Origin: an uncultured Eubacteriales bacterium
Lineage (GTDB): Bacteria; Bacillota; Clostridia; Oscillospirales; Oscillospiraceae
Direction of reading: 5' to 3'
Assembly (NCBI GenBank): GCA_900319695.1
Contig: ONPN01000020.1
Location: 1 to 38,327, forward strand
Length of the DNA: 38,327 bases
Shown: piece after piece, positions 1-23,890 of the stretch
Layout of the letters: each line of letters begins with the position of its first letter
Position numbering within the stretch: the first letter of the stretch is position 1
Translations under genes and position numbers: made by a program
Notes under the pieces: model-generated
The model's database searches: none
Seen by the model: the letters and a program-made list of their open reading frames with translations, nothing else
What the model was told of the DNA's origin: nothing

Positions 1-135
1 TCGTTTTAACGAAAAGGCATCGCGCAAGGCGCGCTGCCAGTTTTGTGCCCTCGGGCACAAAACACGTCTCATAGGTCTCCGACGTGCCTTTGGCGCTATA
101 AAACAGCTTTAAGCCGTTTTATGGGAGACCAGTAT
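1..135 (+). repeat. Multi-hairpin dispersed repeat, copy 1 (cut by window edge)
   Basis: Collinear with 22548-22682 over 135 bases without indels and with three substitutions. It holds the right half of hairpin 1 (GTTTTAACGAAAA), hairpin 2 (CGCGC-AAG-GCGCG closed by GGCA/TGCC), hairpin 3 (GTTTTGTGCCC-TC-GGGCACAAAAC), and a branched hairpin closed by GGTCTCC/GGGAGACC that encloses GTGCC-TTT-GGCGC and an ATAAAAC/GTTTTAT stem. It ends in CAGTAT, which pairs with ATACTG at the left end of complete copies. The left part lies outside the window. Function is unknown. Confidence 0.85.
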
Positions 136-10201: not shown

Positions 10202-10254
10202 TGTGAATAGCGATTCGCAGAATCGCGCGGCTTTCAAATGAACGCGCTCATGTG

Positions 10255-10384
10255 ATACTGTTTTTCGTTAAAACGGCTCGTTTTAACGAAAAGGCATCGC
10301 GCAAAGCGCGCTGCCAGTTTTGTGCCCTCGGGCACAAAACACGTCTCATAGACGGCTTTAAGCCGTTTTATAGGAGACCAGTAT
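10255..10384 (+). repeat. Multi-hairpin dispersed repeat, copy 2 (130 bp, lacks a sub-hairpin)
   Basis: Complete at both ends: ATACTG at 10255-10260 and CAGTAT at 10379-10384. Hairpin 1 is perfect (TTTTCGTTAAAAC with GTTTTAACGAAAA); hairpins 2 and 3 match the other copies. Relative to copy 3 about 28 bases are missing after GTCTCATA, removing the GTGCC-TTT-GGCAC sub-hairpin; GTCTC and GGAGAC can still close the last stem. Confidence 0.9.
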
Positions 10385-10587
10385 GAATCCTCCCTATCGT
10401 TGATGGCTTTATTATGCCCGATCAGGGGACCTTGATTGTATTCTGTTGAGTACAGCAACTCTACGGTCTGGGACTTTTCGTAATACTTGCAGGAACTCAG
10501 TGTTATCATTATCAAAACCACCAAATCATTTTGTTTTCTTCTTTTTCGGGCCTCGCGTCTTGGATTCGGGTCGGCATGGCATACCAT
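10385..10587 (-). pseudogene. Possible lipoprotein gene remnant cut off by the repeat
   Basis: From the ATG at 10587 the frame gives a basic stretch (RREARKRRKQ), a hydrophobic run (DLVVLIMIT) and LSSC, a plausible lipobox, then KYYEKSQTVELLYSTEYNQG. After roughly 65 codons it runs into the multi-hairpin repeat and continues as repeat-encoded sequence. The ribosome site is weak and no family is recognised. The best reading is the 5' end of a lipoprotein gene whose remainder was lost at the repeat; chance is not excluded. Confidence 0.3.
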
Positions 10588-22495: not shown

Positions 22496-22524
22496 TAAGG
22501 AGGATGGAGTAGAATCAGAAACTG

Positions 22525-22682
22525 ATACTGTTTTTCGTTAAAACAGCTCGTTTTAACGAAAAGGCATCGCGCAAGGCGCGCTGCCAGTTTTGTGCCCTCG
22601 GGCGCAAAACACGTCTCATAGGTCTCCGACGTGCCTTTGGCACTATAAAACGGCTTTAAGCCGTTTTATGGGAGACCAGTAT
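22525..22682 (+). repeat. Multi-hairpin dispersed repeat, copy 3 (complete, 158 bp)
   Basis: Full unit with end pair ATACTG/CAGTAT. Hairpins: TTTTCGTTAAAAC/GTTTTAACGAAAA; GGCA-CGCGC/GCGCG-TGCC; GTTTTGTGCCC/GGGCGCAAAAC (one U-G pair); then a branched unit closed by GGTCTCC/GGGAGACC holding GTGCC-TTT-GGCAC and ATAAAACGGCTT/AAGCCGTTTTAT. Its right end is two bases from the ftsZ stop codon (22685), so it forms the whole start of the ftsZ 3' untranslated region. Confidence 0.92.
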
Positions 22683-22684
22683 GA

Positions 22685-23890
22685 TTACTTGGTGTTGAAA
22701 ATCTTGAAGATGCTGTCGAAGGGGTCCTCCTCCGCGGCAGGTTTGGCCTGTGCGGCGGGCTGAGCCGCGGGTGCGGCGGGCTGGACGGGCTGCTGCGCGG
22801 CGGCTGCCTTCTCGGCGGCGCCGGTGAAGAGGCCCTGCGGTCTCTCACGGCCTGCGGCGGGACGCACCGGCGTAAAGGCCGGGTTGTTCTGCTGCACGGA
22901 GGCGGCAGGAACGGGGACGGCCTCAGCATTCAGGACGGCGTCTTCAAAGCCGGTGGCGATGACAGTGACGCGGATCTCATCCTCGAGCGTATCGTCGAAG
23001 GTCGCGCCGAAGATGATGTTGGCCTCGGGGTGGGCGGCCTCCTGCACGAGGCTGGCCGCGGTCTCGACGTCCTCGAGATCCATGTCGGCGGAGCCGGTGA
23101 TGTTGATGAGCACGCCGCGCGCGCCGTTGATGGAGGTCTCCATGAGGGGGCTGGCAACGGCCATGCGGGCGGCCTCCTCGGCCTTGCCCTTGCCTGCTGC
23201 GCGGCCCACGCCCATGTGGGCAAAGCCGGCGTTCTTCATAATGCAGGTCACATCGGCAAAGTCGAGATTGATGAAGCCGGTGTTCTTAATGAGGTCGGAG
23301 ATGCTGGTGACAGCCTGAAGCAGCACGTCATCCGCGATCTCAAAGGCGTTGGCCAGGGTGACCTTCTGGTCGGTGGCGAATTTCAGCCTGTCGTTCGGGA
23401 TAATGAGCAGGGAGTCAACCCGGCCAAGCAGATCCTTGATGCCGGCGTTGGCCTGATCCATGCGGCGCTTGCCCTCAAACTTGAATGGCTTGGTCACGAC
23501 GCCGACGGTCAGCAGACCCGCGTCGCGCGCGATCTCAGCCACGATAGGCGCAGCGCCCGTGCCGGTGCCGCCGCCCATACCGCAGGTGATGAAGGCCATA
23601 TCGGCGTTCTCGATCACCTTGGCGATGTTGTTGCGGCTCTCCTCGGCGGAGCGCTTGCCGATCTCGGGATCGGAGCCCGCGCCCTGGCCCTTGGTCATCT
23701 TCTCGCCGATCTGGAGCTTCTGATCCGCGTTGGAGACGGCCAGCGCCTGCTTATCTGTATTGATGGCGATGAACTCAACGCCCTGGGTGCCGGCCTTGAC
23801 CATGCGGTTGACCACATTGTTGCCGGCTCCGCCAATGCCAATCACCTTGATATTGACAACATTTTCAGGTACATCGGCTTTAAAATCCAT
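22685..23890 (-). CDS. ftsZ: Cell division GTPase FtsZ
   Basis: 401 residues. It polymerises with GTP into the mid-cell ring. The nucleotide motif VIGIGGAGNN is at 16-25, and the tubulin signature GGGTGTG is at 106-112. The synergy-loop region NLDFADVTCIMKNAGFAHMG follows. An Ala/Pro/Gln-rich linker (about 320-385) leads to a C-terminal tail of DPFDSIFKIFNTK, which differs from the usual DIPAFLR-type peptide that binds FtsA, SepF or ZipA. The ATG at 23890 has GGGAGG 7 bases upstream; an in-frame ATG 5 codons earlier has none. Last gene of the dcw cluster with its own promoter at 23957-23985; ftsA is absent. Confidence 0.97.
   Translation of the reverse strand: MDFKADVPENVVNIKVIGIGGAGNNVVNRMVKAGTQGVEFIAINTDKQALAVSNADQKLQIGEKMTKGQGAGSDPEIGKRSAEESRNNIAKVIENADMAFITCGMGGGTGTGAAPIVAEIARDAGLLTVGVVTKPFKFEGKRRMDQANAGIKDLLGRVDSLLIIPNDRLKFATDQKVTLANAFEIADDVLLQAVTSISDLIKNTGFINLDFADVTCIMKNAGFAHMGVGRAAGKGKAEEAARMAVASPLMETSINGARGVLINITGSADMDLEDVETAASLVQEAAHPEANIIFGATFDDTLEDEIRVTVIATGFEDAVLNAEAVPVPAASVQQNNPAFTPVRPAAGRERPQGLFTGAAEKAAAAQQPVQPAAPAAQPAAQAKPAAEEDPFDSIFKIFNTK

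Follow-up and report, generated by a model that had tools for sequence, protein, structure and literature searches.

The window (the whole stretch of DNA that was analysed, 38,327 nucleotides) is the entire contig C58. It contains three copies of a repeat element in one orientation, at the positions that the initial annotation had given. Copy 1 lacks its left part because the contig starts within it. Copy 3 is full length and is located in the pyk-ftsZ spacer, between the ftsZ stop codon and a terminator-like site facing ftsZ. A second terminator-like site, after pyk, lies ahead of copy 3 (both sites were identified by a consensus scan). The plus strand of copy 3 lies behind this second site and so need not be transcribed. 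The features of the element in the window are as follows.

22526..22681, plus strand: full-length element (copy 3), 156 bp, TACTG...CAGTA
22523..22525, no strand: left target-site duplication TGA
22682..22684, no strand: right target-site duplication TGA, which adjoins the ftsZ stop codon (22685-22687, minus strand)
22526..22544, plus strand: left terminal inverted repeat TACTGTTTTTCGTTAAAAC
22663..22681, minus strand: right terminal inverted repeat TACTGGTCTCCCATAAAAC
22532..22562, plus strand: hairpin 1, formed by the left terminal repeat and an inverted copy of this repeat after it (predicted fold, covariation)
22563..22585, plus strand: hairpin 2 (predicted fold, covariation)
22587..22610, plus strand: hairpin 3 (predicted fold, covariation)
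22611..22620, plus strand: unpaired conserved linker ACGTCTCATA, family consensus CGTCTCATRC
22621..22677, plus strand: branched unit, with a stem of 22621-22627 paired with 22671-22677 that encloses hairpins 22631-22643 and 22645-22669
10256..10383, plus strand: copy 2, with 28 bp missing from the branched unit and TGA at 10253-10255 and 10384-10386
1..134, plus strand: copy 1, truncated by the contig start, with a TAA right flank at 135-137

The terminal inverted repeats are imperfect, about 20 bp in length, and start with TACT. The ends had been described as pairing through ATACTG and CAGTAT. TACTG and CAGTA belong to the element, whereas the outermost bases are those of the target duplication TGA. 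The three hairpins and the branched unit recognised earlier agree with the predicted RNA structure, and the loss of about 28 bases reported for copy 2 corresponds to a 28-bp deletion in the branched unit. The stem of the branched unit exhibits changes on both sides in 7 of 7 pairs. No open reading frame of at least 80 amino acids is present inside the 156-bp element. Another sequence of the window, at about 280-360 (GGCAACACCGCACAATCCGCC...), recurs in or beside other copies (C44:75851, C84, and C47) and is apparently another dispersed repeat.

Copies and variants of the element

The genome of the window (G000) is a 2.82 Mb draft that was judged 79% complete. The genome-wide search identified many copies in it rather than few. 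A search with the 158-bp unit yielded 85 first-look candidates, 40 of which were scored, and the left-end and right-end patterns gave 59 and 55 matches respectively, with 0 in the controls (at most 3 mismatches). Among the copies of this genome with matching flanks, the length between the duplications ranges from 48 bp (the two ends only) to 176 bp, and this variation consists mostly of lost stretches. The genome also contains a second subfamily that has a very different sequence and the same architecture (5 candidates with an ambiguous linker were left out of the subfamily comparison). One-ended copies were observed as well (G000:C43, C27, C62, C65, C69, C79, C31, and C85), and in many of them the break falls at one of two shared points immediately outside hairpin 3, around position 60-63 or 96-102. 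The recurrence may stem from deletion driven by the hairpins or, alternatively, from the assembly.

Across the genus, the element was identified by BLAST in 14 of 61 genomes, and diverged members were identified by the covariance model in 27 of 61. The degenerate end pattern matched 36 of the 61 genomes. Its reversed control also gave 7 matches in 6 genomes, and single matches to this pattern therefore mean little. In the collection of named genomes, the linker pattern identified 31 stretches. Each belongs to a MAG titled Oscillospiraceae, Ruminococcaceae, Clostridiales, or Clostridia, and rumen or abomasum appears in several of the titles. The covariance model matched all 13 of the loci that were tested out of these 31 stretches (46 source loci, bacterial and viral, were supplied to the model check of linker-pattern loci). 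The looser linker pattern matched 33 viral contigs, none of which was confirmed by the covariance model, and the phage and plasmid collections exhibit no match to the element. Spread via viruses or plasmids was rejected on these results. One relative, G057, has at least 7 copies that share one model score and differ in their flanks, which is a sign of recent spread. The element has proliferated in several species of a single genus of gut bacteria within the Oscillospiraceae.

Several variants and other repeats were observed beside these copies. Two genomes have 215-bp variants (L186 in G060:C35, L391 in G060:C71, and L383 in G034:C5) in which the linker is lengthened by about 50 bp of additional, hairpin-like sequence. 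Two 309-bp copies in G057 (C9:12885-13193 and C10:19096-19404) share an insert within hairpin 1. Measured against the element, this insert points one way in the first copy and the other way in the second, which suggests a further mobile insert. A different element of 164-167 bp (G000:C47:21459-21622, L175 in G039:C88, and G000:C82:31748) resembles the 156-bp element in its TACT ends and TNA flanks but lacks the linker and folds differently; in C47, the two elements directly abut each other. L157 and L177 (G039:C151) represent an element of 195 bp, including duplications, that has TNA flanks, TACT/TACC ends, and hairpins arranged differently.

Insertion sites and target preference

The copies of the relatives that were found by the model have T and A on both sides in 63 of 69 cases, a count that is favoured by the inclusion of about 12 copies whose loci were first fetched with an end pattern demanding T-N-A outside one end. 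That pattern does not favour the equality of the middle base, which is identical on both sides in 59 of the 63 T-A-flanked copies, compared with 32% expected from composition. The set of 69 omits the window, two loci of its own genome, rows that are short or lie at an edge, and duplicate entries of the same flank. A larger tally of 94 duplications in 105 copies contains 38 copies of the genome of the window that were chosen for equal flanking bases.

A nested insertion was identified in G057, where excising the element together with one TAA restores an element of the second type; over 163 nt, the restored element has 96% identity with an intact copy. This insertion fits a TNA duplication and does not fit a TA duplication. 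The genome G089, from a sister species and 93% identical in the ftsZ stretch, has the end of ftsZ, the spacer sequence, and the inverted repeat that belongs to the terminator-like site, with no element beside ftsZ. G089 does have a full copy (96% identical, model E value 1.6e-47), but on the pyk stop codon, at a distance of 281 bp from the ftsZ stop, and TAA flanks it on either side. The genome of the window has a copy beside the ftsZ stop codon and none at pyk. The comparison of empty sites, which had been proposed in search of target duplication, has thus revealed reciprocal empty sites in the pyk-ftsZ spacer, together with the TNA duplications. No copy was seen at the ftsZ site of 12 other relatives (by eye, within at most 200 bp, and only 109 bp in one), and no covariance-model match above noise was obtained in their loci.

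As established by sequence comparison of these sites, the element inserts as DNA at T-N-A and duplicates 3 bp. A non-autonomous mobile unit was one of the two possibilities raised initially, and it is supported by the copy number, the 3-bp duplications, the nested insertion, the reciprocal empty sites, and an IS630-type candidate partner.

The target logo of 93 unique sites exhibits a weak WCTRAA, and TAA and TGA outnumber TTA and TCA by 76 to 18 in the orientation of the element (94 copies). A home-made hexamer gene caller assigned 87 of the 93 sites as non-coding. By this caller, 34 of the 87 non-coding sites are exactly on a stop codon (28 sense and 6 antisense), compared with 16.3 expected (13.2 sense and 3.1 antisense; P about 9e-6). 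The TRA target preference by itself predicts the split of 28 to 6 (P 0.53). A cruder null exhibits hardly any excess (12 sense and 4 antisense seen, 10.7 and 2.5 expected); it used a poor open-frame gene caller that left 27 sites as 'coding' and 11 without candidates. The first tally of 35 sense and 8 antisense among the 93 sites was based on open frames of at least 70 codons and overstates the number. Since the two nulls disagree, the stop-codon excess of about twofold is graded as likely rather than proven. Three copies from both subfamilies (G000:C50, C91, and C79) end at one short sequence, whose last bases before TTA are CATGGGGAT and which is part of a palindromic repeat in two of the three cases and looks as if it were an insertion hot spot.

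Fold and complementarity of the arms

The plus-strand RNA of the element has a predicted minimum energy of -81.5 kcal/mol (z -9.65), and none of 200 shuffles is as low; the minus-strand RNA has a z of -7.63. The plain MAFFT alignment of 12 chosen sequences exhibits two-sided changes in 20 of 60 pairs. The model alignment was made to follow the structure; pairing is retained in 95.7% of its 3908 pair cells, and 55 of the 60 pairs exhibit two-sided changes. This alignment consists of 76 covariance-model matches (70 distinct) drawn from 70 source loci; two of its rows are truncated at a contig end, and a third is a weak match on the reverse strand within a different copy. The compensatory changes that the initial annotation had proposed to look for are evident, with a covariation score of 0.489 compared with a mean of 0.155 for shuffles and at most 0.087 for slid partners. 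The linker columns (CGTCTCATRC) carry 1.25-1.89 bits each, compared with a mean of 1.13 for paired columns, and rank with the TACT/AGTA ends among the best conserved columns. The six-hairpin architecture and the unpaired linker are fixed while nearly every stem changes by paired substitutions. The Rfam search of the window matched only two tRNAs at the curated threshold and left the element unmatched. The loci of 15 relatives likewise matched only tRNAs at threshold, and three matches to unrelated families, far below threshold, overlap copies.

The pairs that are kept are seldom wobble pairs. There are 44 G-U cells and 54 A-C cells among the 3908 pair cells, and the proposed trend of substitutions towards plus-strand G-U pairs is not borne out by these counts. 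G-U represents 1.18% of the standard pairs in the element, compared with 6.2% in a control of 16 tRNAs taken from the loci that hold the element. The 14 full-length copies of the genome of the window exhibit one-sided changes of 7 A-C, 2 G-U, and 3 other, and 8 two-sided changes. Close copies differ mostly on one side, whereas distant copies differ mostly on both. Among pairs of sequences at most about 15% apart, which are not independent of each other, one-sided differences are more often A-C than G-U except in the closest class (6 G-U and 2 A-C). Since G-U is rare and not above A-C, neither strand behaves like a selected RNA. The suggestion of a folded RNA under selection is thus not upheld, although the covariation is very strong. 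The absence of wobble argues, indirectly, that complementarity looks kept in DNA and not as RNA, presumably because selection favours hairpin extrusion, because template switching corrects the arms, or for both reasons. The end hairpins, each a terminal repeat paired with an inverted copy of itself, would extrude in single-stranded or supercoiled DNA at replication or transposition, so that the arms stay Watson-Crick. Alternatively, polymerase template switching may repeatedly correct one arm from the other.

These observations bear on two other explanations of the element. A structured RNA could be the selected function (a 3'-UTR stabiliser, a terminator, or a small RNA) that mobility merely spreads, and this is decidedly unlikely. 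The strong covariation and the highly conserved unpaired linker are what such an RNA would exhibit. Many copies would also lie in 3'-UTRs if many insertions are on stop codons, as 34 of the 87 non-coding sites are (16.3 expected, with hardly any excess under the cruder null). However, the G-U share of 1.2% is not above A-C and is far from the 6.2% of tRNAs, the 28:6 split is accounted for by the TRA preference, copy 3 is located behind the terminator-like site after pyk, and the element has no Rfam match at the curated threshold. The hairpins could instead be functionless in an otherwise ordinary parasite, with template switching between the inverted repeats keeping the arms complementary. Arm homogenisation of this kind is described in the literature (PMC8604942), and it would produce both the changes from one Watson-Crick pair to another with no preference for wobble and the passage from one-sided differences in close copies to two-sided differences in distant ones. 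However, the six hairpins, their order, the length of about 156 bp, and the linker are kept across very different sequences. Correction alone would not suffice for the number and order of the hairpins and the linker to be kept, and this explanation is possible but doubtful.

Candidate transposase and comparison with known systems

Element ends at contig breaks in G034 pointed to a reading frame, and a DNA search followed by a protein search gave an IS630-family element of about 1.1 kb that has two overlapping frames and ends beginning with TACT. The DDE half of the G043 copy matches NCBIfam NF033545 at 138.6 bits (cut-off 100) and Pfam DDE_3 (PF13358) at 1.3e-19. The helix-turn-helix half of the copy in the genome of the window, taken alone, scores 56.3 with NF033545, below the cut-off of 100. 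The last catalytic D and the E are separated by 31 residues, in a stretch that was picked by eye and whose length was verified; 34 residues are usual in the IS630 family. Transposase matches were identified in 22 of 102 genus genomes, including that of the window, and many of them are 28-residue stubs at contig ends. The genome of the window has one copy (G000:C55) with 84% protein identity and TAA/TAA flanks. The five copies with both ends read have flanks of TAA/TAA (three), TGA/TAA (one), and TCA/TAA (one, a broken copy). The TAA/TAA flanks agree with a TA duplication as well as with a TNA duplication.

The ends of 94 copies of the element, a miniature inverted-repeat transposable element (MITE), were compared with 12 ends of the IS. 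The best-match means are 14.0 (left) and 14.9 (right) of 22, compared with 9.3 (sd 1.9) for shuffled left ends. These means owe their height to the subfamilies other than that of the window. Three copies of the second subfamily from the genome of the window have means of 17 and 18.7, with ends that reach 17-19 of 22. The 35 copies of the window's subfamily have means of 10.8 (left) and 12.8 (right), and means of 9.2 and 11.6 with the IS copy of their own genome, near the shuffled 9.3. Given this weak match, the window's subfamily is tied to the transposase mainly via the architecture, the TACT ends, and the TNA target that are common to the other subfamilies. No excess of co-occurrence was found among the 61 genomes, where the MITE is present in 5 of 13 transposase-positive genomes (5.8 expected). 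The MITE-rich genomes G060 and G057, both incomplete assemblies, gave no transposase match.

The family-model search for alternative transposases covered a single family, PF01609 (IS4/IS5-type), and TNA duplications occur in IS5-type elements. PF01609 was rejected as the partner: it is unmatched in the assemblies of the genome of the window, G054, and G060, and none of the 30 fetched loci with such genes has matching ends around the gene, with one chance pair of 7 out of 22 bases alike. A pair of TACTGTG ends located 1196 bp apart in G000:C10 was also rejected as an IS, as no transposase frame could be recognised in it and the sequence resembles, by eye, a group II intron remnant.

The element is a MITE that is probably moved in trans by the IS630-family transposase. 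The transposase would bind the ends, excise the element, and reinsert it via a 3-bp staggered cut, and the window's subfamily would use the same transposase or a sister one. The linker is a putative protein-binding site. It is unlikely that another transposase moves the element and that the IS630-type element only resembles the ends of some subfamilies. The TNA duplication differs from the TA described for IS630, the ends of the window's subfamily match the IS weakly, and the co-occurrence exhibits no excess, all of which would fit such a transposase. However, PF01609 gave neither a match in the three assemblies nor a locus with matching ends, and the IS630-type copies have the TACT ends and TAA/TAA flanks. 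A unit like REP/REPIN, in which the end hairpins would be the recognition sites of a mobilising Y1 (HUH) transposase, is highly improbable. Each end of the element is a short conserved tetranucleotide beside a hairpin, just as a short conserved tetranucleotide adjoins the hairpin in REPs. However, Y1 transposition is not known to leave a target duplication, and the 3-bp duplication and the nested insertion contradict it.

A further reading, which we put forward tentatively, adds to the IS630-family explanation that the DNA structure itself is conserved. The six hairpins and the fixed linker, maintained in extruded or single-stranded DNA, would serve as a platform for recognition or synapsis, and a transposase of the IS630 lineage would have switched from TA to WCTRAA with a 3-bp TNA duplication. 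If this is true, the element represents a class of bacterial transposon in which the oriented WCTRAA target would let insertions fall on stop codons and spare the gene.

No prior description of the element family was found in the open-access papers that were searched. Its nearest counterpart in kind is RUP of Streptococcus pneumoniae, the MITE of IS630-Spn1. RUP has been described as a short, intergenic, and geneless element of about 100 copies, with terminal repeats that resemble an IS630-family element in the same genomes (PMC2229807). RUP has 107 bp and inserts at TA, whereas the element in this work has 156 bp, a TNA duplication, six hairpins that are conserved across diverged subfamilies, and a conserved linker. 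The CIR elements of Caulobacter are described as two hairpin arms and a linker, with phylogenetically conserved fold properties (PMC2229807), and share the plan of arm, linker, and arm with the element in this work. CIR differs in that it exposes a GANTC motif and is of unclear mobility, whereas the linker in this work is CGTCTCATRC and mobility is shown by the insertion sites. Among pneumococcal repeats, BOX has been reported as modular and structured and SPRITE as enriched near the 3' ends of genes (PMC3049150). SPRITE and the element in this work are both near gene ends; SPRITE is described as terminator-like with AAAA/TTTT ends, and the same source reports that a duplication could not be established for it and that no IS with similar ends was found (PMC3049150). 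The TA target duplication of IS630 is reported to be common to Tc1 (PMC7325037). The DDE half of the candidate partner is above the NCBIfam cut-off for IS630. However, the MITE has TNA in place of TA, and the partner differs from the IS630 family in its two overlapping frames and its 31-residue D-E spacing. The TNA duplication, the oriented target, and the fold conserved over diverged subfamilies set the element apart from these known systems.

The reviews, as far as their accounts of bacterial MITEs go, call these elements structured mostly on the basis of predicted transcript folds (PMC10969869, PMC2229807). The many diverged sequences in this work allow the fold to be tested by covariation, and the lack of wobble pairs favours DNA over RNA. 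The findings also provide a candidate system of the IS630 lineage that duplicates TNA, has an oriented target, and inserts at stop codons. The many natural deletion variants of the element could reveal which of the hairpins are needed for its movement.
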